64,000 nucleotides of DNA from Humisphaera borealis (GTDB lineage Bacteria; Planctomycetota; Phycisphaerae; Tepidisphaerales; Tepidisphaeraceae): positions 3,596,001 to 3,660,000 of the forward strand of contig NZ_CP063458.1 of assembly GCF_015169395.1 (NCBI RefSeq). The letters run 5' to 3'. The translations under genes were made by a program, and so were the position numbers. This document shows, in pieces, positions 45,307 through 60,497 of this stretch (position 1 is the first letter of the stretch; every line of letters begins with the position of its first letter). The notes below the pieces were generated by a model. The model made no database searches. It saw nothing but the letters and a program-made list of their open reading frames with translations, and was not told where the DNA came from.

Positions 45307-48300
45307 CTAAATCGCCCTGCCGGCGTCCCGGAGGATTGCCGAAGTGCGCCCCGCCGGATCGCGGAAGAAATGTGGCGTCCAGATCCGATGCAGCTTCCAA
45401 CCCTGGGCTTCGAGGATGCCGGTGCGGAAGACGTCCCACTCCATGAGATCGTCGGCCGGCGCGAAGCGGGCGGCGTCGCACAGCACACCGATCGGCACGG
45501 CATCGTCGCCACCCGAGCGAAGGGCCAGATCGACACAGAATCCGTCGTTCCCCCAGTAAACTTCCGTCGTCGCGCCATGCGCCGCCGCCAGCTTGTGTGC
45601 CAGCGACTCGGCGAAGGACGACGGGGTGCGAGTCGGGCGGATGCGAACGGGCGGCATCGGCGGGAGCGATGATTGCTCGACGTCTGATGGCAGTTCGATG
45701 TCGAACCACTCCGACGCGTCGGCATCCAGGGGTTGCTTCGGTCCGCTCTCGGCGGGCGCTCCTTCGATCTCCCGCGTCAGTTCGTCCGCGAACTTCAGGT
45801 ACGAGAACAGCAGCCAGCCCCCGCCGGGCGTTTGGCCCTCGGCCGGTTCGGGTAGCGATCGATACGCCTGCTCGGGGATTGAAGTGACCAGGTGCACCTG
45901 CTGGCGGGCCCGGGTGACAAGCACGTTCAGTCGTCGTCCGCCGCCGGGCATCGCGAGCGGTCCGAACCGCCTGTAGAACCGACCGCCAGCGTCGGGGCCG
46001 TAAGTGGTGCTAATGATCATGTGGTCGCGCTCGTCGCCCTGGACGTTTTCCAGGTTCTTGACGAACAGACCTTCGAACGTGCCCTCGCCGACACGGTCGC
46101 GGGCGTCGCTCAGCTTCTTGGCGAACTTCGAATCCTCCGCCGCCAGGTCGTCGAGTTTTTCGACAATCAGGTCCCGCTGCGACATGTTGAAGCAGGCGAT
46201 GCCGATGCTCGGCGGCTTTTTCTCGGCCAGCAAGTCTCTCACCACCGCCACAACGGCGTCGGCTTCGATCTCATTCTTCCGCTTCTCGTAAACGCCATTG
46301 GCGCGGATCAGGCGGATCGGCGCGATCTCCGGGCGGTTGCCGGGATGGCCGGGAATTGGCTGCAGCCGGCTGCCGTAGAAATGCGTGTTGCTGAACTCGA
46401 TCAGCGCCGCGTTGCGCGAGCGATAGTGGACGTCGAGGTAGCTCTGCTGGGCTTCGAGCCCGAGTGCCGCCGTCAGCAGATCTTCGACTTCGCCCTGCTG
46501 CTGCTCGAACCATTCCTGGTCGCTGGTGGGGTCTTCGTCGTCGTCGCTCGCGGCAAACGCCGACTCGAAGAACCGCGTCGGCGGAAGCTGTTTGGGGTCG
46601 CCGGCGACAACCACCCGCCGGCCGCGCACCAGCACCGGCAACGCCTCTTCCAGCCGGCACTGACTGGCTTCGTCGAAGACGACGACATCGAAAATCGGCT
46701 CCAGCGGAAAGACCTGCGCCGCCGTCTCCGGCGACACCATCCAGACCGGGCAAATGTCGAACAGCGGATCGCCGCCGGCGATCTGCCGACCGCGGGCCAC
46801 GACCTGCCGCAGCCGCATTGCTCGTTCACCGCGCAGCAGCAGCCGGCGTTTGAGTTCCGCGCCGGCGGTGTTCAGGCGTTCGCCGTTGGCCGACAGCATC
46901 CGGTGCTGCTGCTCGCTCAGCCAGCGGTTGTAGATGACATCGCATACGAGCTGCCGCTTCTTGGACTGCAACTCGCGATATCGCTCGAAGGCTGAAGACA
47001 GTCGATGCCCGTCAACGCTCTGGAGTTGCGGGTCGGCCCCGATGCGCCGGCGGATCTCGCCGGCGATGATGTCCCGCCGCAGCACGTCCCAGGCCTCGGC
47101 TGGCTCGGCAGATTGCAGCAACAGCGCCTCAGCCGCAGGCCGAACCATCGGCGGCACGGCGGCCAGGGCGTCTTTAGCGCGGATGACGTCTTCCAACGTC
47201 GGCAGTTGGTCGCGCAGGGCAACCACCGCCGGCAAGACGGGCTCGCCTTTGCACAAAGACAGATCGATGCCGCGGAGCCACGCAACGGCGAACAGTTCGG
47301 CATCGACCATCGCCTGTTCGACGGCGGTGATGTCTGCCGCCCGTTTCGGCGACTGCGTGATCGCCTGGATCAGCGGGAGAAGCTTTGTCCGATCGACCAG
47401 CGCCTCGGCGATGACAGGCCAGACATCTTTCGTCAGCGGCTCGGCCGTCGTTGAAAGCGCCACGTCAAAGAGTGCGGCATGCCCGCGAATGCTGACCTCG
47501 AGGTCGTGGTCGTCCATCAGGTCGTCGGGCGTAGGCGCGTTCAGAACGCTTTCATTGAGGTTCTGCAGGTAGACGCGGACAACCAGCGCGTTGATCAGCG
47601 CCGTGATACGCGTGGCGTTCTGCGGCAACGGGGCAAGCTCGAGCAACTCGAACACCGGCGCGGCCATGCTGTACTCGGCCCAGACCATCTGGTTGACCAG
47701 CTCCGTCGCGTCCGCGGCGACGGAACCCTCCAGCAAGGCCGGACGGTGCAGGTCGGACGCGGCACGCAAGACCGTGCGATTGCTGGCGTAGACGCCGAAC
47801 AGTTCTGCATCGTCGGGCAGCGTTGTTGCGCCGCCGAAAGCCTTGGGGCCGATCGCCTTGGCGGTGGCATCCCAGGTTTCGAGCCGGGCCCGCAGCCCAC
47901 CGAGAAAGTCTCGCACCCGCGATGCACTTTCAAAGCTCAGGCCGAGGCCGAAGAATTCGACCACCGGCGATGCCGCCTTCTTCTTCGAACCGTGCAGGAA
48001 TCCAAGGAATGACTTGGCGATCGGCAGATAGGTTTCCAGCGCCGACTGCCATCGAAGCACCTGCGCGATATCGAACGGCTGCCGGCGATACTGGGCGAGC
48101 AGTTCGGCATCGAGCGGCGTTTTCGACGCCCGCTCCGCCAGCGGGCCGGCTACCTCCAGCTTCTTCAGCACCGCCTCGGCGGCCGACGTCTCGGTGCTCA
48201 TCCAGCGGGCGACCGTCGGCCAGGGTGCCTGCGGCGCTTTCTGGCGGATCTGCTCGACCCACTGCATCGACATGCCGAACGCCTCGGCGTACTTCTGTAC

Positions 48301-50913
48301 AAGCGTCCGCTGCTGGGTGAGGTCCTTGACGGCAGGCAGGTCGCGACCGTGAACGGCGACCCAGCGTGCCCGCAGCTCGGGTTCGGGGATCTGCTGCTTG
48401 AACGCCGACAAGTAAGGCAGCGCTTCGGTGATCTTCGATCGCGCCGTCTTGATGGACGCCAGGTCCTTCTTCGCCCACCGGTCAAGAACTTCGGGCGGCG
48501 TCTGGTTCAGCATCGTGTCGAGCCGCTCCAGCAGGGCCAGCCTTGCCGTGGCCTGCGCGGTGACATCAAGCCCCTGCGTGAACGGCGGGAGCAGCGGCTG
48601 CTTTTCGACCGATGTCTCATCCGCCGTCGCCGCCGTAGCGACAACGGCTTCCAATGCCGACTTGTTCTGCTCGACCGACCGGCCCAGAAAGTTTTGCAGC
48701 GTGGTACCGACCGCGACCGACCACGGGTTCTTCGCGTACGCCACTTTCAGTCCGCGGGTAAACATCTCGCGTAACGGGTGTTCCAGCGGCGACAGTTCCT
48801 GGAGCCGTGTCTTGGCCAGCTCCGCCGCGGCTTTCCCTTCCACGGTGACGCGCCAGCCCAGGTGCGCGTTGTCCTCGCCGCCGCCGGTCAATAGCGCCGC
48901 CGGCGACGCCGACAGCCATTGCCCCATCAGCTCGTGGAACGAGTACCCCGTCTCGGCGTCCTGCCGGGCCAGGGCCATTCGATAGTTGGTCAGCTCGGCG
49001 TGAAGCGACTGCAGTTCCTGGTCGAGCTCTTCCAGCTTCTTGTGCGAACGCGCCCGCTCCTTGGCTTCGGCAAGATTATCGAGCTGGTCGCGAATCTTCT
49101 TGTACAACTCGCGCTGGTCGCGCTGCGGGTCGTGAACGACGCCGGTCAGTGCTCCGAGGCCCATGTGCTCCAGCCGGTCGGCGACGACATCCAGCGCGGT
49201 GCGCTTCTCGCAGACGAACAGCACCCGCTGCCCGCGCGACAGGTGATCGCCGATGATGTTCGCGATCGTCTGGCTTTTGCCGGTGCCCGGCGGGCCGTGG
49301 ATGACCAGCGCCGTGCTTTGGCGCGCCTGGCGGACGGCCCGCGCCTGGCAGGGGTCGGCGGCGGCGACGAGGCGCTCATCGGCGAACTCGCGCTTGCCAT
49401 TCGATGCCGCGGGCTTGGCGGCCTGCACGGCGGCGTCGGCCTTTTCCAGCAGCGCCGGCGCGCCGACATCGAGCAGATCGCCGACACGGATGAAACCCGC
49501 AATCGGCCCGCGCAGCTCGCCGGGGTTGTCCACCATCTCCTGCATGTCGCGCAGGAGCCCCTGGTTGGCCATCGGGAACAGACCGAGCACCGCCGACATC
49601 ACGATCTGGGGGCTGCTCTCCAGATCATCGGTGCGCGGGGCGGCTTGCAGTTCAACCACCGGCGTTGCCGGCTGCGGTGGACTAACGGGCTCGGGTGCCG
49701 GGGCCTTGCCGGTATCGGTCACCGCAGCCGTTGTGACCGCCGCATCCTCCGGCGCGTCTTCGGTGGTCTCTTCTTCGGGCAGCTTGTCGAACAAATCTTC
49801 CGATTCGTCGCCTGGCGCGGCTGCAGTGTCTTTCGGCGGCGTGCCGAGCAAACCCTCGGCGACCGGCGGCTTGTCCGCGGCGGCCGGCGCGACGGCCTTG
49901 GGCGCGAACGCCTCCGGAATCTCCAGGTCTACCATCTCGCAGACGCGGGTGACCAGGTCGGTCAGCTCCCGCCACGGGTCTTCACCCTTCTCGTCGGCGT
50001 AGAGATCGGCAACGCCGTCGAGCGAGCGGCCGGTCTGCCGTTGCAGCCAGGCGAGCAGCGCCGTGTTTGGCTGGACTAGGTCGACGCCATCGCCGCGGCA
50101 GGCGACTTCGACGCTGCGGGTCGCGCCCCGGCGGAGCGTGAGCGAGACGGGAATGAATGCGATCGGCGCCAGGATCCGCCGGCTCGATTGCCGCCCCGTC
50201 GCCGTCGCGGCGAAGCTCGGCGGCAGGCTTAGCAGCGGAAAGCCGACGTTCAACACATGAACGCCGGTGTCCTGCTCATAGGTTCGGGCATCGTCGGCGA
50301 TGATGTGGAGCTTCTGCAGGAGCGTGTTCTGCTCGTCGAGCGGATCGCGGGCGTCGGTTGCGCCGCGGCCGAACCTCTTCGGCTTCTGAACGACGTCTTC
50401 TGAGGGCGCTGCGACAGCGACATCTTCCGCGTTTTCGTGCGAATCGGCTTTCCCGACCGGGGTAGCCATGCCTGCATCTACATTAGGGTTTTCGTCCCTC
50501 AACGCTTCATCCACCGGTTGATCGACCAGCGGTTCGACGTGCTCCCCTTGGGGCCTTGGCGCAGTCGGGTGGTTCGCGGCGGATTTCGGCGCCCGCGCCC
50601 TCAGTACGGCCTTGCGCCCGTCACCCAGCAGGTCGCGCAACGCCTCAGCAGGTGCGATGTCGTTCATCGCCGAGAGACTGTGCCAGTCGATCCGCTGACG
50701 GCTGCGATGGGGACGGCAGTTGACGCTGGGGCCATTCACCAGGGCGGCAAAAAGCCGATCGAGCATCCGCTCGAGCACTTTACGTCCGGCGGCGGCGTTG
50801 ACCGGGGGTGGAGGAGCGGTGCCGACGGGCAGCGCGGCCGGTGCGGAAGGCGGGGCCGCCGTTGGGCTTGTAACAGGTGCGGCGGACGAAGGAGAAGACG
50901 TCGGTTCGGTCAT
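45307..50913 (-). CDS. Giant SF1 helicase with DUF4011 start and Vsr/MTES_1575-type nuclease-like end
   Basis: An 1868-residue protein. After a Pro/Ala-rich leader, residues about 55-90 match the DUF4011 type (VLERMLDRLFAALVNGPS). The AAA_11/AAA_12 (UvrD/SF1B, DnaA-like Upf1 group) helicase shows Walker A VIHGPPGTGKSQT near residue 540, Walker B FDEASQCRLEEALP near 1410, then AGDPKQLPPTRFF, VHYRSRN and VTRARQQVHLV. The last ~100 residues (LAHKLAAAHGATTEVYWGNDGFCVDLALR, WDVFRTGILEAQGWKLHRIWTPHFFRDP) resemble the REase_MTES_1575 domain. ATG 50913 is preferred to 50961. Such fusions often occur in genome-defence loci; here it stands alone. Role inferred only. Confidence 0.9.
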   Translation of the reverse strand: MTEPTSSPSSAAPVTSPTAAPPSAPAALPVGTAPPPPVNAAAGRKVLERMLDRLFAALVNGPSVNCRPHRSRQRIDWHSLSAMNDIAPAEALRDLLGDGRKAVLRARAPKSAANHPTAPRPQGEHVEPLVDQPVDEALRDENPNVDAGMATPVGKADSHENAEDVAVAAPSEDVVQKPKRFGRGATDARDPLDEQNTLLQKLHIIADDARTYEQDTGVHVLNVGFPLLSLPPSFAATATGRQSSRRILAPIAFIPVSLTLRRGATRSVEVACRGDGVDLVQPNTALLAWLQRQTGRSLDGVADLYADEKGEDPWRELTDLVTRVCEMVDLEIPEAFAPKAVAPAAADKPPVAEGLLGTPPKDTAAAPGDESEDLFDKLPEEETTEDAPEDAAVTTAAVTDTGKAPAPEPVSPPQPATPVVELQAAPRTDDLESSPQIVMSAVLGLFPMANQGLLRDMQEMVDNPGELRGPIAGFIRVGDLLDVGAPALLEKADAAVQAAKPAASNGKREFADERLVAAADPCQARAVRQARQSTALVIHGPPGTGKSQTIANIIGDHLSRGQRVLFVCEKRTALDVVADRLEHMGLGALTGVVHDPQRDQRELYKKIRDQLDNLAEAKERARSHKKLEELDQELQSLHAELTNYRMALARQDAETGYSFHELMGQWLSASPAALLTGGGEDNAHLGWRVTVEGKAAAELAKTRLQELSPLEHPLREMFTRGLKVAYAKNPWSVAVGTTLQNFLGRSVEQNKSALEAVVATAATADETSVEKQPLLPPFTQGLDVTAQATARLALLERLDTMLNQTPPEVLDRWAKKDLASIKTARSKITEALPYLSAFKQQIPEPELRARWVAVHGRDLPAVKDLTQQRTLVQKYAEAFGMSMQWVEQIRQKAPQAPWPTVARWMSTETSAAEAVLKKLEVAGPLAERASKTPLDAELLAQYRRQPFDIAQVLRWQSALETYLPIAKSFLGFLHGSKKKAASPVVEFFGLGLSFESASRVRDFLGGLRARLETWDATAKAIGPKAFGGATTLPDDAELFGVYASNRTVLRAASDLHRPALLEGSVAADATELVNQMVWAEYSMAAPVFELLELAPLPQNATRITALINALVVRVYLQNLNESVLNAPTPDDLMDDHDLEVSIRGHAALFDVALSTTAEPLTKDVWPVIAEALVDRTKLLPLIQAITQSPKRAADITAVEQAMVDAELFAVAWLRGIDLSLCKGEPVLPAVVALRDQLPTLEDVIRAKDALAAVPPMVRPAAEALLLQSAEPAEAWDVLRRDIIAGEIRRRIGADPQLQSVDGHRLSSAFERYRELQSKKRQLVCDVIYNRWLSEQQHRMLSANGERLNTAGAELKRRLLLRGERAMRLRQVVARGRQIAGGDPLFDICPVWMVSPETAAQVFPLEPIFDVVVFDEASQCRLEEALPVLVRGRRVVVAGDPKQLPPTRFFESAFAASDDDEDPTSDQEWFEQQQGEVEDLLTAALGLEAQQSYLDVHYRSRNAALIEFSNTHFYGSRLQPIPGHPGNRPEIAPIRLIRANGVYEKRKNEIEADAVVAVVRDLLAEKKPPSIGIACFNMSQRDLIVEKLDDLAAEDSKFAKKLSDARDRVGEGTFEGLFVKNLENVQGDERDHMIISTTYGPDAGGRFYRRFGPLAMPGGGRRLNVLVTRARQQVHLVTSIPEQAYRSLPEPAEGQTPGGGWLLFSYLKFADELTREIEGAPAESGPKQPLDADASEWFDIELPSDVEQSSLPPMPPVRIRPTRTPSSFAESLAHKLAAAHGATTEVYWGNDGFCVDLALRSGGDDAVPIGVLCDAARFAPADDLMEWDVFRTGILEAQGWKLHRIWTPHFFRDPAGRTSAILRDAGRAI

Positions 50914-51043
50914 CGCTCGGCTCGCTGTGGGTGAAACTCCAGAGCCGAGCATTGTCAGCATGTGATTCGCCGCATCAACCGCGGGAACCCGTTCCGGTGA
51001 ACAATCCTCCCGAAGGAGAGGCGCGGTTCAGAAGGCAAAGCAG

Positions 51044-51841: not shown

Positions 51842-52308
51842 AAAGCGCTCCTTTCAAAGCGATCATCGCAATCACAACAGAAACACGCGCGACCACCCAC
51901 CGATCGATGGCTCAGGTCATCTGATGTCGTGGGAAAAGTTCGCGGGGCTTGCGTTGTGTGGCTGAAAGAACCCTAGCATTCAAAAATCGAGCGAGGGGTG
52001 ACCGGTTTAGGTTAGTGGACGTTTCCTGAACCCTTAATAGGTGGGTTTAAGCCGGATATCGGGCTACCGACGGGTGGGTAACCCACCCGGGTGGAGGTGT
52101 GGGTAAAAGAGCCGGCAGAAACGCTGTGTTTATAGGCCTTTGCGGTGCGGTCATCACCGAAGATTGCCCCGGTTAGCGGTCGCACCGCAGGTGCACTCTT
52201 TCACTGCATTCTTCAATTCTCTGCCAGTGCAATCTGTCCGAATCCTGCGTTACAGAAGACGTGCACCGGCGGTGCGACCGCTAATCGGCTTAAGCTTCCC
52301 TGGTGACA
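51842..52308. other. Intergenic region between the VPLPA-CTERM and VWA genes
   Basis: 467 bases. Holds the promoter of the VPLPA-CTERM gene (minus), a small GGGTGGGTAACCCACCC palindrome near 52070, and the palindromic repeat at 52173-52284, which lies just beyond the stop of the VWA gene. Confidence 0.6.
52173..52284. repeat. Palindromic repeat after the VWA gene
   Basis: Perfect 15-base arms TTAGCGGTCGCACCG (52173-52187) and complement (52270-52284), extended inward by GTGCAC pairs (52191-52196, 52261-52266). Each arm includes a small hairpin (GCGGTCGCACCGC). It ends 25 bases beyond the VWA stop. Confidence 0.85.
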
Positions 52309-53508
52309 CTACGGGCGACCGCCCGAAACGGAGATCCCATGCCCCGCCGCCCATTCGGCCATCGGACGGCGGCCAATGGCGGCGGCGATCAGGTCGGGGA
52401 ACAGGTCTGGGGTACACGCGAACGCCGGTGAACCCAGCGCGGCCAAATCGGCGGCGTTCTCGTGGTCGTACATCGGAGCGCCGTCGTCGCTCAGCGCCAA
52501 TAGCGTGATCATGCTCACGCCGGAACTGATGATCGAAGCCGCCCGTTTCATCAGGTTCTCGCGCACGCCCCCTTCGATCAGGTCGCTGATGAGCACGAAA
52601 ATCGTCTGCTCCGGCCGGCTCATCAGCGACTGGCAGTACGTCAGGGCGCGGTTGATGTCCGTCCCGCCGCCGAGCTGCGTGCCAAAAAGCACCTCGACCG
52701 GGTCGTCGAGCTTGTCGGACAGATCGACAACAGCGGTGTCGAACACGACGACCTGCGTCTTGACCGCCGGCATCGACGCCAACACCGCGCCGAAGATGCC
52801 AGAGTAGACGACGCTGGTCGCCATCGACCCCGACTGGTCGATGCAGAGCACGATGTCGCGCAACGCGCTGCGCTTGCGGCCGTAGCCGATGCGCGTCTCG
52901 GGGACGACCGTCTTGTAGTCCGGCTGGTAGTTCTTCAGGTTCGCGCGGATGGTGCGGTTCCAGTCGATTTCGCGGTGCCGCGGCCGGCGGTTGCGGACGG
53001 AACGGTTCAGCGCGCCCGCGACTGCCGACCGCATCGGCTCGGCGAGCTTGCGCTCGATGTCTTCCACGCACTTGCGGACGACGACGCGTGCGGTGGCCTT
53101 GGTTTTGGCGGGCATGACGCCGCTGAGTGAAAGCAGGTCAGCGACCAGGTGCACATCGGGCTCGACGGTCGCGAGCATTTCCGGTTCCAGCAGCATCTGC
53201 TTGAGGTTCAATCGCTCCATCGCGTCCTGCTGCATGACGCGGACGACGGACGTGGGGAAGAACAACCGGATATCGCCGAGCCACCGCGCCACCGACGGCG
53301 ACGACCCGCCCAGCCCGCCGCGGCGTTGCCGCTCTTTTGGTTGGCTGTCGTAGAGGGCGGCGAGGCACTGGTCGATCGCGGCGGCCCGCTTGTCGAGCGG
53401 AACGCCGATGCCGTCGGCCTCGTTCCCGCCGAGCATGAGCCGCCAGCGACGGAGGGTCTCGGCGTCGTTGGCGTCTTTGGCATCGCTGGGGGTGGTGATG
53501 TCGCTCAT
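52309..53508 (-). CDS. VWA-domain protein of the MoxR/DUF5682 operon
   Basis: A 399-residue soluble protein, last gene of the operon. Residues 1-215 are helical; from about 218 to the end is a von Willebrand A domain with an intact MIDAS: DQSGS at 224-228, the Thr in LGGGTDINRAL, and the Asp in LISDLIEGG. VWA proteins of this kind are bound or remodelled by MoxR AAA+ ATPases. Its start codon overlaps the DUF5682 stop by 4 bases (ATGA at 53505-53508), so translation is coupled. No signal peptide. Partner and target unknown. Confidence 0.92.
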   Translation of the reverse strand: MSDITTPSDAKDANDAETLRRWRLMLGGNEADGIGVPLDKRAAAIDQCLAALYDSQPKERQRRGGLGGSSPSVARWLGDIRLFFPTSVVRVMQQDAMERLNLKQMLLEPEMLATVEPDVHLVADLLSLSGVMPAKTKATARVVVRKCVEDIERKLAEPMRSAVAGALNRSVRNRRPRHREIDWNRTIRANLKNYQPDYKTVVPETRIGYGRKRSALRDIVLCIDQSGSMATSVVYSGIFGAVLASMPAVKTQVVVFDTAVVDLSDKLDDPVEVLFGTQLGGGTDINRALTYCQSLMSRPEQTIFVLISDLIEGGVRENLMKRAASIISSGVSMITLLALSDDGAPMYDHENAADLAALGSPAFACTPDLFPDLIAAAIGRRPMAEWAAGHGISVSGGRP

Positions 53509-55994
53509 ACGCCCTCCTTCAGGATCGTCAGCAATAGAGGCAACGCCCGGGCGGCACGCTCGTGATTCAGATCGCCTTGCAGGGCAACGCCGCGCGAGCT
53601 TCCGCTCGCGGCCTTCCCTTTGCCGATCATTTGCCCGATTTGCCGTCGTTCGGGCGCGGGGAAGGTGGTGAACGTCCGCCGCAGCAGCGGCAGCAACTCG
53701 TCAAAGATGTCGGGATTGATCTGCCGCACCCAAGCGTCGATCAGGCCGAGAAGCTTGGGATCATGAATCAGCAGCAGGCCACTGCCGCTGAGGAAGCCCT
53801 CCAGCCAGCGGGCGGCCTGCCCGGGGTCGGATCCGCGCGACAGTGTCTGGCTCAGCCGCAGGCCGACGTCGTCGGTGGAAAGCTTGCCGCCGTCGAGCAA
53901 CAGCCGGGCGGCGCGGCCGCGCACCAGGCCGTGGACAGTGTCCTGCCCCAGGATGCGGTTCAGCGCCGTCTGCCAGTCGGCGGTGTGATCGGCCGCATCG
54001 AGCTGCTCCAGGGCGGCGTTGGTCGATTTCAGGTGCCCGTCCATCGCGGCGGCGGCGTCGTCATTCAGGCTGCCGACCGCGCCGCCCAGGCCGACCGTAA
54101 TGCGGGGGACGATGCCGTCGACAATCTCCCGCACCATGCCCTCGTCGGTCTTGCGGACGTTGCCGTACCGCAGCAGCGACGTCAGCGACGGCAGCGTTTC
54201 CATCAGCAGCGTGATGTCGGTGGCGACGGCGGCGACGTTTTCGATCTGCTTCACCAGCGCCGTCGCCGCGTCGCCCAGCGACGCGAGCATCGCATCCTGC
54301 AACCGGGCCGCGAGCGACCGCAGGTCGTTCGTGTCGGCCGCCGCCTTGGCGACGGCGGCACCGGCGGCCTGCTCGATCGTCGTGCCGAGCGTGCCGGCTT
54401 CGATCAGCTTTACCGCATACTCCGGCTGCCACCGGAGCTGCCACAGCTCGTGGAAGGTGCCCTTGCCCCGGCCATGCTCGTGGGGCGTACCCCAATCGAT
54501 CCCCAGCAGCCGCAGGCGGTGTAGAAGAATGCTCCGCTCGCGGTCGGTGTCGCCGCGAAGATCGAGGTCGAGCTCTTTCTCCAGAGCTTCGGCCTTAAGC
54601 CGCAGACGTTTCTGCTCCCGCATCAAGTCCTGCTGAAGCGGGACCGTCGGCGTGTCTTCGGGCACTTGACCGATGCGATGGCCGACGAGCAGTTCCCGAT
54701 CGATCAGCCGCATGACCACGTCGGAGTCGAAGCAGAAGATCGATCGCGTGGCGTCGGCGATGTCGGACAGATCGGCCAGTGGCCGCCCGCGGATCGTCGC
54801 CAGTGTTTCGCTCAGCCGGACGGCTTCGATCACGTGGGCACTGGAACAGTCGATGTCCTTCTCGCGCAACAGCCCGGCGACGCGGGACATCCACGCTTCG
54901 AGTATCGAATCCTTCCGCCGCCAGAGGTGGTCGTACCACCCCGGCGAATGCACGCCGGCACCGTAGCCGCTGGCGAAGGTCAGGCGGTCGTAGGTCCAGG
55001 GAATCCAGGTGGCGGCGGTCTTGGTTTTGGGAAGACCCTTGAGCAGATCGGCGTCAGCCTTCTTCGTGAACTTCTCGACATCCAGCACCGGCGCGTGCCA
55101 CGCGCCGCAGACGACGGCGATGTTCTTTGCGCCGCCTTTGATCGCGTCGCGAATGGTCTGCCGCATCCAAGCCTCGCGGAGAAGTTCGTCTTCGTCGCGC
55201 GGGGATATCGGCGTTCCGGGAGCGCGGGCATCCCCGCCCGCATCGGCATTGTCGGTATCCGACGCCGTTTCGCCGGCCGCGGGCACACGGCCGTGTGCCC
55301 CTACGGCAGCGGTCGCGGCATCGCGATCCTTCCGCAGTTCGGCCATCGCATCGCGGATCGCGGCGAACAGCGCCACGCCTTCCTCCCGTCGATGCTCGAC
55401 GACGTGTTCCCACCAGCGTTCTCCGTCGTCAAACCCTGCGGCCTCGGCGAGCCGTTGCAGCGGGTCGCGCTCGATCCGCCGGCCGGCGAGAAGAAGCGCC
55501 GCCGCAGCCGCGTCTTCGGCTTCGTCACTGTCCGTGTCAGCGTCGCCAACGTCATCACCCGCGGCATCTACATCGTCGTCACCCGAAATCTTCCCCGCCG
55601 CCTCGTCCGCCGCCTTCTTCTCGGCGATCGCTTTGAGCTGGTCGAGGAGCGCCTTCCGCCGATTGGCGTCGATCGCCAACCGATGCGACTGCGGCAAATC
55701 CATAAACCGCACGGCGACGTTGTTCGCCAGCGCCCACCGAATCGCCTGCCACTCCGGCGAAAACGCCGCGAATGGGTAGTACACCGCGTCCGAAGGCTCG
55801 GCGACGTCATGCACCAGAATCGCCACCGGCGGATGCATCTCCTCTCGGGCAGCGAACGGGATCATCTCATCCGCATCCGGCGGGCCTTCAATGAGAACGC
55901 AGTCAGGCTTGAGTTCGTCGAGGGCGCGCAGAACCGATTGCGCCGAGCCGGGGCCGTGATGGCGGATGCCGAGGATATGTAGGTTATCCGGCAT
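53505..55994 (-). CDS. DUF5682-family protein
   Basis: An 829-residue soluble protein. The N-terminus, NLHILGIRHHGPGSAQSVLRALDELKPDCVLIEGPPDADEMI, is the DUF5682 hallmark; a second block, IAVVCGAWHAPVLDVEKF, lies near residue 300. A low-complexity acidic insertion (DDDVDAAGDDVGDADTDSDEAED) is at about 145-170. The N-terminal fold recalls TraB/ChaN-type alpha/beta domains with conserved His and Glu, so catalysis is possible (tentative). The C-terminal half is helical. It is coupled to the VWA gene by ATGA; its stop side is intact, and a VOC gene lies between it and MoxR. Confidence 0.88.
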   Translation of the reverse strand: MPDNLHILGIRHHGPGSAQSVLRALDELKPDCVLIEGPPDADEMIPFAAREEMHPPVAILVHDVAEPSDAVYYPFAAFSPEWQAIRWALANNVAVRFMDLPQSHRLAIDANRRKALLDQLKAIAEKKAADEAAGKISGDDDVDAAGDDVGDADTDSDEAEDAAAAALLLAGRRIERDPLQRLAEAAGFDDGERWWEHVVEHRREEGVALFAAIRDAMAELRKDRDAATAAVGAHGRVPAAGETASDTDNADAGGDARAPGTPISPRDEDELLREAWMRQTIRDAIKGGAKNIAVVCGAWHAPVLDVEKFTKKADADLLKGLPKTKTAATWIPWTYDRLTFASGYGAGVHSPGWYDHLWRRKDSILEAWMSRVAGLLREKDIDCSSAHVIEAVRLSETLATIRGRPLADLSDIADATRSIFCFDSDVVMRLIDRELLVGHRIGQVPEDTPTVPLQQDLMREQKRLRLKAEALEKELDLDLRGDTDRERSILLHRLRLLGIDWGTPHEHGRGKGTFHELWQLRWQPEYAVKLIEAGTLGTTIEQAAGAAVAKAAADTNDLRSLAARLQDAMLASLGDAATALVKQIENVAAVATDITLLMETLPSLTSLLRYGNVRKTDEGMVREIVDGIVPRITVGLGGAVGSLNDDAAAAMDGHLKSTNAALEQLDAADHTADWQTALNRILGQDTVHGLVRGRAARLLLDGGKLSTDDVGLRLSQTLSRGSDPGQAARWLEGFLSGSGLLLIHDPKLLGLIDAWVRQINPDIFDELLPLLRRTFTTFPAPERRQIGQMIGKGKAASGSSRGVALQGDLNHERAARALPLLLTILKEGV

Positions 55995-55999
55995 GATCC

Positions 56000-56344
56000 T
56001 TACCGTTGTTTGAGTTCCACGCGTCGGCCATCCGGATCACGCACTACAAACGTTCGTCCCCACGGCTCGTCCCGAATGTCACCGGGGTTTCTGCCCTCAT
56101 TCGCAAGTCTTTGTCGCACGTTGTCGAGTTCATCTACCGCAAACCCCAATCCCAATGTGTCGGTCTTGTCGTCGGTCGAGGGATAAAGCTCCAGAACGAA
56201 TGAGTCGCTCTCGCTAGCCAGGTGTTCCGGCCCCTTTCCATGCTGATGCATCGAAAACTCAAAGTTCAGCTGCGCGTAGAACGCGGCCGTAGCCCGCATG
56301 TCGGCACAGCGCAGAACGAGCAAATTGAGTCGAGAAGGTGTCAT
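56000..56344 (-). CDS. VOC-superfamily protein (glyoxalase/bleomycin-resistance type)
   Basis: A 114-residue VOC domain, one beta-alpha-beta-beta-beta pair: LNLLVLRCADMRATAAFYAQLNFEF, then a metal-ligand-bearing strand SFVLELYPS, and GLGFAVDELDNVRQRLANEG...RTFVVRDPDGRRVELKQ. These act as dimers on small molecules (metal-dependent isomerases, dioxygenases) or bind antibiotics; the substrate is unknown. It lies between the MoxR and DUF5682 genes, 5 bases before DUF5682 on the same strand, and is flanked upstream by a palindromic repeat, which suggests it is a later insert in the operon. Confidence 0.88.
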   Translation of the reverse strand: MTPSRLNLLVLRCADMRATAAFYAQLNFEFSMHQHGKGPEHLASESDSFVLELYPSTDDKTDTLGLGFAVDELDNVRQRLANEGRNPGDIRDEPWGRTFVVRDPDGRRVELKQR

Positions 56345-56352
56345 CGGGCCTT

Positions 56353-56489
56353 GTAGGGTGGGCTTCAGCCCACCGGTTGCGATTGAAGTCGTGTTGTGTC
56401 AATTGCGGAGCCGCTCGGACGTCAACGCGATCAAAAGGTCAACAAGACAGGTTTTCGAACGGGTCTTGGTGGGCTGAAGCCCACCCTAC
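56353..56489. repeat. GTAGGG-family palindromic repeat inside the operon
   Basis: Perfect 22-base arms at 56353-56374 and 56468-56489, beginning GTAGGGTGGGCTTCAG. Each arm is a hairpin (GGTGGGCTTCAGCCCACC). It fills the gap between the MoxR stop (56495) and the VOC gene start (56344). Confidence 0.9.
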
Positions 56490-56494
56490 GTTTC

Positions 56495-57646
56495 CTACAA
56501 GGTCTCCCGACAAGCCCGATACAGGTCCTTCCACCCGTCCCTCTCTTTGACCACCGTCTCCAAGTACTCCTGCCACACCACACGATCCTGCACCGGATCT
56601 TTGATCACCGCACCAACCAGCCCCGACGCAATATCACTCGCCTTGATCGACCCATCGCCGAAGTGCGCCGCCAGCGCCAGACCGTTGTTCATCACACTAA
56701 TCGCCTCGGCGGTGCTCAGGGTGCCGGTGGACTGTTTGAGCTTGCTCTTGCCGTCTTCGGTCTGGCCGTTCCGCAGCTCGCGGAAGATCGTCACCACCCG
56801 GCGGATCTCGTCGAGGCCGGTCAGCTCGGCGGGGATCTCCAGTGCCTTGCCGAGCGACTTCACCCGCTGCTGGACGATCGTGATCTCTTCGTCGGCCGTG
56901 TCGGGGACGGGGAGGATGACGGTGTTGAACCGCCGCTTGAGGGCGCTGCTCAGCTCGTTGACGCCTTTGTCGCGGTTGTTGGCCGTCGCGATGACGTTGA
57001 AGCCCTTGGCGGCCTGGACTTCTTCGCCGAGCTCGGGAATCGGCAGCGACTTTTCCGACAGGATGGTGATGAGCGAGTCCTGGACGTCGGCGGGAATGCG
57101 CGTCAGTTCTTCAATGCGGGCGATGGTGCCGGTGGCCATCGCTTTCATGAGCGGGCTCGACACCATTGCCTCGCGGCTGGGGCCCTTGGACAGCAGCAGC
57201 GCGTAGTTCCAGCCGTAGCGGATCTGCTCCTCGGCGGTCCCCGCCGTGCCCTGGACGACCTGCGTCGAATCGCCGCTGATCGCCGCCGCCAGGTGTTCGC
57301 TGAGCCAGCTCTTGGCGGTGCCCGGCACGCCGAGCAGCAGCAGCGCGCGGTCAGTGGCGAGCGTGGCGATCGCGACTTCGATCAGCCGGCGTTTGCCGAT
57401 GTACTTGGCGGTGATCTCCATCCCGCCGGCCTTGCCGCCCAGGACGTACGTCGCCACGGCCCAAGGCGACAGCTTCCACTTGGGCGGGCGCTGCTTGTCA
57501 TCGACTTCCTGCAACGCAGCCAGCTCGGCGGCAAACTGGTCCTCGGCGTGACGACGCAACACGCTTTCGACCCCCGATGAACTGGTGGCCGTACTGGCTG
57601 CGCCGTTCCCCTTCGCGGCCGGCGTTTCCTTCGCTTTTGTGCTCAT
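56495..57646 (-). CDS. MoxR-type AAA+ ATPase
   Basis: A 383-residue AAA+ ATPase. Walker A GVPGTAKS at 106-113, Walker B-like IARIEEL near 175-181, sensor 1 ATANNRDKG near 220-228, arginine region ALKRRF near 235-240. ATP-driven chaperone-like remodelling of partner proteins, typically VWA proteins. A residues 1-70 segment precedes the domain (TKAKETPAAKGNG...). ATG 57646 overlaps the stop of DUF5691 by 4 bases, so translation is coupled; the stop is followed by a palindrome. The VWA and DUF5682 genes later in the operon are the expected partners. Confidence 0.93.
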   Translation of the reverse strand: MSTKAKETPAAKGNGAASTATSSSGVESVLRRHAEDQFAAELAALQEVDDKQRPPKWKLSPWAVATYVLGGKAGGMEITAKYIGKRRLIEVAIATLATDRALLLLGVPGTAKSWLSEHLAAAISGDSTQVVQGTAGTAEEQIRYGWNYALLLSKGPSREAMVSSPLMKAMATGTIARIEELTRIPADVQDSLITILSEKSLPIPELGEEVQAAKGFNVIATANNRDKGVNELSSALKRRFNTVILPVPDTADEEITIVQQRVKSLGKALEIPAELTGLDEIRRVVTIFRELRNGQTEDGKSKLKQSTGTLSTAEAISVMNNGLALAAHFGDGSIKASDIASGLVGAVIKDPVQDRVVWQEYLETVVKERDGWKDLYRACRETL

Positions 57647-59154
57647 GATGCGAACTCCGCTTGAATGTCGTGTCTCAGTTGCAGCGTCTGAAGGCAGGCG
57701 TCGAGCGCCTTGCGATTGGTCTCCCACGCCGGCTGGTTGGCGGCCGTCCAGCGGGACGACAGCTCGGGATATAGCGCCGGCGGAAATCGAAGGGCGATGC
57801 TCTCGAGTATCCAGGCCAGTCGATAGTCGTAATTGTTGTTCACGGATGCCGCGTGCCGGTCGATCTGCCCGGCGATCGCTTTGGCATTGGCGACATCGAA
57901 CGAGAATTGCGACTGCTGCAGCAGTTGCGAGGTCAGCTCGATCGACGGCTGTGCTGTCGAAAAATACTCGGCCACGATCATCTGCCGATCCGTCGGCGCA
58001 AGCGCGTTCAGCAGGTCGAATTGCGGCGACCGCTTTGCAACCGGGTGCAGGACCAGCGCACGGATCCACGCGGCGTCCGGGTTACGTTTAGCGGCGTCGG
58101 TCCATGCGGCGGTGACGACGCCGGCAAAGTCTTTCGATAGTCCGATGACGCACGCCGATGGCTCTTCCTTCCAGAGCGATGACCAGTGCGTCGGTGGAAC
58201 CGCCGATAGAATCTGCTGTGCCCACCATTGCTTCATGCCGGTGCCCTGAACGGCCTTCTCATTTACGCCGTCTCGCTGCCATGCCGGATCAAACGCAGCC
58301 GGCAAGTTGACATCGATGTTCCCGGTCTTGGAGCCTTTGGCGAATGTCAGTATTGCGGCCCCGCGTTCGGCCATGCGTTGAACGAACGCCGACGTCGGCA
58401 GTCGGGACAGCAATTCGGTCGTGGCGGCGCGGACCTGCTTGCTCTTGTCGTCCAGGGTCGATTCCAGGAACAGCTCGTCGGCGGCCGTCAGGCCGACCGC
58501 CAGCGTTTCGACGAACGCGGCCCGCTCGTCGGCGCCGTCTTCCTTCCAGGTGCCTTTGATGAGGTCGATCGCCCTGGCCGGGTCGACGGCGCGGAGCCGC
58601 CGAAGGGCCGAGATGCGTTGCTCTTTGCTGCCGGTGCCCCAGATCGCGGCGAAGTCTTCGGATTCGCCGACGGCGACCTGCCAGCGCGGGTTCATCGCCA
58701 TCAGCCAGCCGGCGCGGGCGTCGCCGGCGGCGACGATCTTGTCGCGCAGGGGGCGGTACGATGCGGCGTAATCGAGCAATGACGGCAGCAAAGCGTGCGG
58801 CACGCGCTGTTTCGCGGTCGCGGCTGCCGTCAGCCATTCGTCCAGCAACTGCTGCTTGGCGGGCGTGTTGGTCATCGCCAGGATGCGGTCGAGCAGTTCC
58901 CCGACGCGGCGCGAGCAAGCCGGAAGCGCGTCCGGCGGGGCGGATGGGGGAAGCGCTTCGACCGCTGCCGGCGACCGGCCGCACGATTCATACCTTGCCG
59001 CGATCGCAACCGCGGACAGCAACTTCGCTTCGGGCGTCGCTGCCGTTGTATTCACCGAAGTGATCGCTTCGGCCAGCGGGCCGGTCGCCTCGGGCATTGC
59101 CGTGCCGCGGGCGGTGCCGATCAGCGCCGTCTTGACCAGTTCATCGACGATCAT
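57643..59154 (-). CDS. DUF5691-family protein
   Basis: A 503-residue alpha-helical protein. It starts 'IVDELVKTALIGTARG', the typical DUF5691 start, and continues with HEAT-like helices (SKEQRISALRRLRAVDPARAIDLI, DDKSKQVRAATTELLSRLP). Repeats of this type form curved scaffolds for protein binding. Overlaps SWIM upstream (59151-59154) and MoxR downstream (57643-57646) by ATGA each. Enzymatic residues are not seen. It probably holds the substrate of, or docks on, the MoxR-VWA machine. Confidence 0.88.
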   Translation of the reverse strand: MIVDELVKTALIGTARGTAMPEATGPLAEAITSVNTTAATPEAKLLSAVAIAARYESCGRSPAAVEALPPSAPPDALPACSRRVGELLDRILAMTNTPAKQQLLDEWLTAAATAKQRVPHALLPSLLDYAASYRPLRDKIVAAGDARAGWLMAMNPRWQVAVGESEDFAAIWGTGSKEQRISALRRLRAVDPARAIDLIKGTWKEDGADERAAFVETLAVGLTAADELFLESTLDDKSKQVRAATTELLSRLPTSAFVQRMAERGAAILTFAKGSKTGNIDVNLPAAFDPAWQRDGVNEKAVQGTGMKQWWAQQILSAVPPTHWSSLWKEEPSACVIGLSKDFAGVVTAAWTDAAKRNPDAAWIRALVLHPVAKRSPQFDLLNALAPTDRQMIVAEYFSTAQPSIELTSQLLQQSQFSFDVANAKAIAGQIDRHAASVNNNYDYRLAWILESIALRFPPALYPELSSRWTAANQPAWETNRKALDACLQTLQLRHDIQAEFAS

Positions 59155-60497
59155 GCGGCGGCCTCCCCCGACACGGATTCACCTTGTACGACCAGAGCCC
59201 GGAACTCACCGCCTTGCATGACCGCTTGCGGGCGCAATCGGCTGCCGTCGAAGCCGGCGGCCACATCAACCGGCGCTCCGCCGGACATTGCCAGCAGCGT
59301 CCAGCCGGCCGAATCGGTCAGGACGGCGGGGAGGGTTCGACGGTCTGAGTCGATGAGCGACCAGCCGTTGCCGGTTCTCGCCGGGACGACTTGTCGCAGA
59401 GGGAGAACGACCTCGCCCAGCCAGGGCTGCTGAGCGCGAAGGAGCGAGATCGCATCACAGAGTGAATCAAGCTTGTCAAAGCCGTCGAGAGATGGGATGG
59501 CGGTCATGTCGCCACGCGTCTTGATCGCCGCCCGTACGCCGTTGCCGGGGAAATAACAGAGTTCCCCTTCGATGCTGAAGCCGGCGACCAGCGGCATTGT
59601 GAAAGGTGCGCTGCCATGGGCAAATGCCAGCACCAGCGCCGGCCTGCGCGAGGCGACGCCGAACAGCCAGGTGCGCGACACGCGCAGCCGATCCTCCTGC
59701 GTCACTTCCTGCGAGATGACCTGCCAGCGGTCCTTCACCGGAGGCAATGCCAGCACATCATCCTGCGAGATCGGCAAGCCGAGCGTGGCAAAGATGTCCT
59801 GTCGGGTGGGCTCGGGGAGCTGGTCGGCGCGTTCGTAGGCGCGGATGAGCAGTTCGAGCGAGGCGAGCTCTTCGACGAACGGCTTTTCCCACCCCGCGCC
59901 GGACGACGCGATCGTGCCGAGCGATTGAATGCGGCCCGAAGCGCCGGTCGCCTGGGCGTCGATCATCCGGCGGGCGGGCTCGTCGAAGAAAGCATAGCCA
60001 CGGCTGGGCGCGGTCGCGATGCCGTTGCGCACCAGGTCGTGAATCCAGAGCCGTAGCGACGCCAAGCCCTCGGCGACGCGCTCCAGTCGTTTCTCGCGGC
60101 GTTTGGCCTGCGCAGCTTCGTCGACCGGTTTGGGGGGCGCTTCGGCCTTGGCCTTGGCTTTCTCGGCGCGCTCGGATCGGGTGGCGAGCCACTCGGTCAC
60201 CCACGCGGGCTTCTCTGTCGCGGCGGCGACCTGATCGCCGGCGTAGAGCAGCATCAAACCAAGGCCGTGCTTGCACGGGAACTTTCGACTCGGGCAGGAA
60301 CACTTGAACGCGGGTTCGGAAAGGTCGACCTGGGTTTGATAAGGCTTGGACCCGCTCCCCTGGCACTCGCCCCAGACGGCTTGCGCATCGGCACCGGACG
60401 TCACCCATTTGCGGGGCGACGCCAATCCCTGGCCGGCCTTGGCGCTGGCCGGGTCGGGGGCCAGTTGCAGGACGCGTTGCGTGGTCCACCCTTCCAT
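59151..60497 (-). CDS. SWIM zinc-finger protein, first gene of the operon
   Basis: A 448-residue protein with an N-terminal SWIM zinc finger CxCx6CxH at C66, C68, C75 and H77 (FKCSCPSRKFPCKHGLGL), then an Ala/Lys/Glu-rich helix and a C-terminal part of ~290 residues with strands and helices. SWIM fingers bind DNA or proteins. ATG 60497 is followed by LQLAPDPASAKAGQGLASP, a common SWIM-gene start. It overlaps DUF5691 by ATGA. It opens the five-gene set SWIM-DUF5691-MoxR-DUF5682-VWA, so its promoter would lie in the 186-base gap upstream. Confidence 0.9.
   Translation of the reverse strand: MEGWTTQRVLQLAPDPASAKAGQGLASPRKWVTSGADAQAVWGECQGSGSKPYQTQVDLSEPAFKCSCPSRKFPCKHGLGLMLLYAGDQVAAATEKPAWVTEWLATRSERAEKAKAKAEAPPKPVDEAAQAKRREKRLERVAEGLASLRLWIHDLVRNGIATAPSRGYAFFDEPARRMIDAQATGASGRIQSLGTIASSGAGWEKPFVEELASLELLIRAYERADQLPEPTRQDIFATLGLPISQDDVLALPPVKDRWQVISQEVTQEDRLRVSRTWLFGVASRRPALVLAFAHGSAPFTMPLVAGFSIEGELCYFPGNGVRAAIKTRGDMTAIPSLDGFDKLDSLCDAISLLRAQQPWLGEVVLPLRQVVPARTGNGWSLIDSDRRTLPAVLTDSAGWTLLAMSGGAPVDVAAGFDGSRLRPQAVMQGGEFRALVVQGESVSGEAAA

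Follow-up and report, generated by a model that had tools for sequence, protein, structure and literature searches.

Escherichia coli K-12 encodes two MoxR ATPases, YehL among them. Seven subfamilies of MoxR are recognised, YehL being one that lacks an assigned function (PMC3893208), and our literature search likewise found no function for YehL. In E. coli, yehL opens a set of four consecutive, overlapping genes, yehL-yehM-yehP-yehQ (b2119-b2122), the fourth of which encodes a SWIM protein; YehI, a DUF4132 protein, and YehK are encoded upstream. A copy of yehM covering at least 80% of the gene was detected in 5166 of 5426 E. coli genomes (95%), almost always a single one on the chromosome. Other MoxR AAA+ motors paired with a MIDAS-bearing VWA partner are NorQ-NorD, CbbQ-CbbO, RavA-ViaA and CoxD-CoxE, the targets of which are metalloenzymes or respiratory complexes. 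For NorQ-NorD, it has been proposed from data that the VWA protein is lodged within the MoxR ring pore, gripping the target through its MIDAS (PMC9976466).

The window, i.e. the whole 64,000-nucleotide stretch of the Humisphaera borealis genome analysed here, carries five genes on the minus strand, transcribed in the order SWIM, DUF5691, MoxR, DUF5682 and VWA. The first gene encodes a SWIM protein of 448 aa (59151..60497; Pfam SWIM, PF04434, 22.6 bits against a cut-off of 19.6). It is followed by genes for a DUF5691 protein of 503 aa, a HEAT-like scaffold (57643..59154; PF18944, 398 bits, E 1e-118), a MoxR AAA+ ATPase of the YehL type with 383 aa (56495..57646; AAA_5, 136 bits), a YehM-like DUF5682 protein of 829 aa (53505..55994; PF18934, 862 bits, E 5e-259) and a YehP-like VWA protein of 399 aa (52309..53508; VWA_CoxE, 169 bits). 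All five open reading frames that an initial annotation had placed here were recovered on this strand, Pfam agreed with it on the domains, and the coordinates confirmed its three 4-bp overlaps (59151-59154, 57643-57646 and 53505-53508, with ATGA read directly at 57643-57646). Its five-gene run held for the genes themselves but not for the adjacency of MoxR and DUF5682, which are separated by a 500-nt gap with a glyoxalase/VOC gene and a repeat pair that had been overlooked. A promoter and terminator scan of the operon region gave no signal exceeding that of shuffled sequences.

The VOC gene (114 aa, 56000..56344, minus strand; PF00903, E 4e-10) ends 5 nt ahead of DUF5682 and is preceded by the repeat pair. 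This REP/REPIN-like element (56353..56489), inserted between MoxR and the VOC gene, consists of inverted copies of the 22-bp repeat GTAGGGTGGGCTTCAGCCCACC at 56353-56374 and 56468-56489, and the repeat had 26 copies in the single-contig, 7.19-Mb genome compared with 0 for a reversed-pattern control. Several of these copies were paired about 115-155 bp apart, resembling a REPIN family in a planctomycete. The GC3 of the VOC gene was 0.61, versus 0.79-0.89 for the five operon genes, and the VOC/repeat insert was absent from both loci (L003 and L008) of a genome from the same family. Hence, the VOC gene is probably a late, foreign-looking insertion that lies outside the conserved system. At another locus (L027:9231-9998), a gene for an IS200-like (Y1) transposase occupied the same gap between MoxR and DUF5682. 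An inverted repeat around AGCGGTCGCACCG...CGGTGCGACCGCT was also observed directly past the VWA gene (52170-52285) and is possibly another mobile or repeat element.

The window MoxR was 41% identical to E. coli YehL (E 8e-75), and the best match of YehL in the whole window genome was this same protein (237 vs 21 bits); the N-terminal 364 residues of RavA gave no match to it. DUF5682 was 26% identical to YehM (E 2e-30 over 641 columns, with PF18934 in both), and the VWA protein was 35% identical to YehP (E 3e-70). The window SWIM protein and YehQ share the PF04434 finger, and no full-length BLAST match was found between them. Based on the homology of these three proteins and on the SWIM finger in YehQ, the operon is a longer version of the known, uncharacterised yehL-yehM-yehP-yehQ set. 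It differs from the E. coli set in having DUF5691, in the position of the SWIM gene, which is first in the window and last in E. coli, and in the length of the SWIM protein, YehQ having 614 aa. The initial annotation had called the machine undescribed, which does not apply to its core, since this corresponds to the E. coli set and the MoxR subfamilies already include YehL by name (PMC3893208). Its statement that no function has been assigned was in good agreement with our literature search, which gave none for this gene set, no experimental phenotype for the system and no paper on DUF5682 or DUF5691.

The Walker A motif of the window MoxR is intact (GVPGTAKS), and its Walker B motif reads ARIEELTR, with Glu at the usual Asp position, as in nearly all relatives. 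This Glu-Glu (hARxEELTR) in place of Asp-Glu is matched in YehL by VRFEEITR. In the VWA protein, all parts of the MIDAS (DQSGS, GGGTD and ISDLIEGG) were found, as had been claimed from the letters alone, and DQSGSM was present in 66 of 69 VWA relatives.

A DUF5682 profile identified 80 loci in one-genome-per-species data, spanning planctomycetes, cyanobacteria, Deinococcales, Chloroflexi, Acidobacteria, Verrucomicrobia and Proteobacteria, and annotated records extended this distribution to Rhizobium and Hymenobacter. Enough flanking DNA was available at 38 loci, most of the others being interrupted by contig ends. All five genes stood in the same order and on the same strand in 35 of these 38, across many phyla, with SWIM and DUF5691 fused in 2 of the 35 and incomplete sets at L012, L064 and L071. 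The whole set in fixed order and strand at so many loci shows that the operon is not accidental. Exact 4-bp overlaps were observed at the four junctions in 27/50, 24/56, 6/74 and 35/66 cases, and the five families co-diverged with r values of 0.82-0.93 (45 loci). Full-length DUF5691 occurred in 11 of 294 genomes of the phylum, all 11 within the 30 genomes that also encode DUF5682 (Fisher p 2e-12). We also considered that these are independently expressed housekeeping neighbours without joint function. One genome (G043) has MoxR-DUF5682-VWA 340 kb away from SWIM-DUF5691, and the insertion parts MoxR from DUF5682 in the window, but the conserved order, the overlaps, the fusions and the co-divergence leave this explanation close to refuted and, in our judgement, extremely improbable. 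The initial annotation had itself proposed such a neighbourhood survey as its test; the genes were conserved together, and its view of one functional unit that contains a MoxR-VWA pair and occurs in other bacteria was borne out. We regard the identity of the operon and its conservation as near certain.

Three versions of the operon could be distinguished. The first is that of the window, SWIM-DUF5691-MoxR-DUF5682-VWA. In the second, a HEAT protein takes the place of DUF5691 (L118 and L121), the slot being filled by an unassigned protein at L120; DUF5691 itself had a weak profile match to the HEAT protein in this slot. The third version consists of DUF4132 or WGR-DUF4132, MoxR, DUF5682, VWA and SWIM (E. 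coli, L126, L128 and L129), with L127 showing the same arrangement without an evident SWIM match. The comparison of gene orders points to MoxR-DUF5682-VWA as the core of the system, with SWIM as its usual companion and a scaffold (DUF5691, HEAT or WGR-DUF4132) that is exchangeable. SWIM and DUF5691 are fused at L019, L029 and in Hymenobacter, and DUF5682 and VWA are fused at L118, L122 and L124 as single open reading frames of 1130-1220 aa. These two kinds of fusion suggest that there may be two sub-assemblies within the machine. On one planctomycete contig (L118), two versions stand in tandem, SWIM-HEAT-MoxR-DUF5682-VWA and DUF4132-MoxR-(DUF5682-VWA fusion)-SWIM.

The SWIM zinc finger of the window protein comprises C66-x-C68...C75-x-H77. 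Its AF2 model (pLDDT 92) shows the finger, a helical region at residues 98-240 and two beta-rich domains, which are predicted to be tandem OB domains at about 246-339 and 338-432, i.e. at the C-terminus. With VIA, residues 246-432 matched the OB domains of RPA70, SSB, RMI1-RMI2 and telomere proteins with Z of about 6, and a single RPA70 chain (1jmc) aligned over 164 residues that span both SWIM OB domains. Independently, Foldseek ranked tandem-OB proteins first (LEF-3, HIN domains, Teb1 and RPA70; E about 0.01), tandem OB folds being at or close to the top with both aligners, and a PDB profile search with the SWIM protein found nothing. As neither the Foldseek E near 0.01 nor the Z of about 6 is strong enough to establish a fold, the match is a good lead and not proof. 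We consider it fairly likely, going by the model, that the SWIM C-terminus consists of two OB folds resembling single-stranded DNA-binding proteins. The earlier idea of SWIM as a nucleic-acid-binding arm gains support from these predicted folds.

In DUF5682, residues G9, H12, E36, D99, G297 and H300 were invariant in 59 of 59 relatives, giving the pattern GxxH...E...GxxH. The initial annotation had described this N-terminus as catalytic-looking, and the two invariant GxxH motifs and the Glu are consistent with that description. The AF2 model (pLDDT 88) shows an N-terminal alpha/beta domain with a helical insert, and a long helical-repeat region at about 540-800 within a C-terminus of about 300 residues. 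The GxxH...E...GxxH layout is that of TIKI/TraB enzymes. The active site of the TIKI/TraB superfamily is made up of two His and two Glu (PMC6254334), and DUF5682 has a clear equivalent for just one of these Glu. The likeness to the TIKI/TraB/EreA superfamily lies in the two GxxH motifs and the conserved Glu within an alpha/beta domain, whereas the sequence match is sub-threshold and the long helical-repeat C-terminus of DUF5682 is additional. One DUF5682 relative had a co-linear Pfam TraB match, below the cut-off (E 8e-4), while comparing profiles of this N-terminus and proteobacterial TraB gave a probability of 0.2%, though the second GxxH was aligned. PDB profile searches with DUF5682 found nothing, and in a fold search with the full protein the C-terminus took up all matches, which were to generic helical repeats (Foldseek E >0.01), so that the N-terminal fold was barely probed. 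The chances that this modelled N-terminal domain is a TIKI/TraB-like hydrolase appear about even.

Several observations hint at a connection with DNA. ung, encoding uracil-DNA glycosylase, was located between DUF5682 and VWA in five genomes, two from Deinococcales and three from Chloroflexi (L027, L051, L054, L059 and L064), with a 4-bp overlap between ung and VWA at L064. Together with a planctomycete locus (L016), where ung stands downstream, beside the operon, the association amounted to 6 of 80 loci. The scaffold of the third version carries a WGR domain, which is known from PARPs. In D. radiodurans, WGR and DUF4132 genes, which may belong to this system, were upregulated on depletion of the DNA-damage repressor DdrO, and moeA and moeB were not (PMC8533742). 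LexA-type and related boxes were sought ahead of the operon and its SWIM gene at 63 loci, and none exceeded chance.

The expression data from D. radiodurans also bear on a role as a metalloenzyme-maturation chaperone, as in CoxD-CoxE, NorQ-NorD and MoxR, in which the remaining proteins would recognise an apo-enzyme and MoxR-VWA would open it so that the cofactor can be inserted. The window VWA belongs to the VWA_CoxE family. We take molR at 47.3 min in E. coli to be the yehF-yehI region, which encodes WGR and DUF4132 proteins and adjoins yehL. molR has been linked to molybdate use at this map position (PMC4245954), and most MoxR relatives of known role act as such chaperones (PMC3893208). However, DdrO depletion left moeA and moeB unaffected, no recurrent metalloenzyme gene was found beside the operon in the 80 loci, and systems of this kind are not known to include SWIM or OB domains. 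We consider a chaperone of this kind unlikely.

A defence or conflict system was also weighed, in which SWIM and HEAT or WGR proteins would sense invader nucleic acid and trigger a MoxR-VWA-DUF5682 effector. Type XIII retrons (PADLOC RT_XIII, HEAT-ARM_XIII, WGR_XIII and SWIM_XIII) similarly pair SWIM with a HEAT or WGR protein, but have a reverse transcriptase in place of MoxR-DUF5682-VWA, and none of the window operon genes encodes a reverse transcriptase. At one locus of Pirellulales (L082:272-5766), type XIII retron genes for HEAT-ARM, SWIM and the reverse transcriptase immediately precede the operon and share its strand. In the window, the operon is followed on its own minus strand by the gene for a helicase-like protein of 1884 aa (45307-50961; PADLOC PDC-S37, E 8e-153, and Hhe, E 7e-87), and the distribution of DUF5682 is patchy (30 of 294 genomes of the phylum). 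In contrast, nearly every E. coli chromosome carries yehM, DUF5682 was found in one phage record and 36 plasmid records, and the strong defence matches listed for 90 sampled flanking proteins were the three genes of one retron only. Moreover, no homologue of the window helicase was found beside other operons, SWIM_XIII and the window SWIM protein share little beyond the zinc finger, and PADLOC gave no match for MoxR, DUF5682, VWA or DUF5691. The window operon has the MoxR-vWA core of the published ternary conflict systems, and its MoxR partially matches bpMoxR (28.6 bits against a cut-off of 27), but a Pfam scan of the operon proteins detected none of the VMAP, iSTAND, FtsH and beta-propeller components that belong to the definition of these systems (PMC7159879). 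The conflict-system link drawn by the initial annotation is weak in view of these missing third components and the near-universal yehM. A role in phage defence is possible, weakly supported and, by our estimate, rather improbable.

SWIM_XIII occurred in 10 of 30 genomes with DUF5682 and in 13 of 264 others; this co-occurrence was set aside as evidence because genome size confounds it, adjacency having been seen only at L082. In the window genome itself, a SWIM_XIII gene and a HEAT-ARM_XIII-like gene lie about 340 kb apart (L172, G000:C1:3424000-3442000, and L173, G000:C1:3762000-3778000). No match to the L082 retron reverse transcriptase was seen in these two stretches.

The reading we prefer, with somewhat less than even confidence, is a cytoplasmic MoxR-VWA remodelling machine of the YehL type, equipped with a hydrolase and an arm that binds nucleic acid. 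A MoxR hexamer would act as the motor, with the VWA protein plugging its pore and gripping an acidic residue of the target via the MIDAS metal. The SWIM-OB protein, mounted on the HEAT-like DUF5691 scaffold, would form the recognition arm and bind DNA that is single-stranded or damaged (or RNA), either on the target or close to it. DUF5682, attached to VWA, may then use its candidate TIKI/TraB-like N-terminal hydrolase to cleave or process what the motor has opened. In this scheme, the contacts between the proteins, the sequence of steps and the link to DNA are our inference. The likely job of such a machine would be the upkeep or clearance of a nucleoprotein complex, a role to which we give less than an even chance. 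A bolder form of the model, which we regard as quite improbable, is a nucleic-acid-guided, ATP-driven protein cutter unlike known AAA+ proteases, where the SWIM-OB/HEAT (or WGR) arm, of a kind common to type XIII retrons, locates a protein trapped on DNA or RNA, MoxR-VWA opens it and the TIKI-type domain of DUF5682 cuts it.

If the DNA link is true, the operon would represent an unrecognised pathway for remodelling DNA- or RNA-associated proteins, shared by many phyla and by about 95% of E. coli genomes. More generally, an orphan operon in the most thoroughly studied bacterium becomes a concrete, testable machine with a predicted nucleic-acid arm and a candidate hydrolase. Compared with NorQ-NorD, CbbQ-CbbO, RavA-ViaA and CoxD-CoxE, the operon shares the pairing of motor and VWA partner but differs in that those systems have no DUF5682, DUF5691 or SWIM protein and belong to other MoxR subfamilies. 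What is new here is the exchangeable scaffold alongside the core trio and SWIM, the fusions, the predicted SWIM OB folds, the GxxH...E...GxxH pattern of DUF5682 and the presence of ung in the operon.
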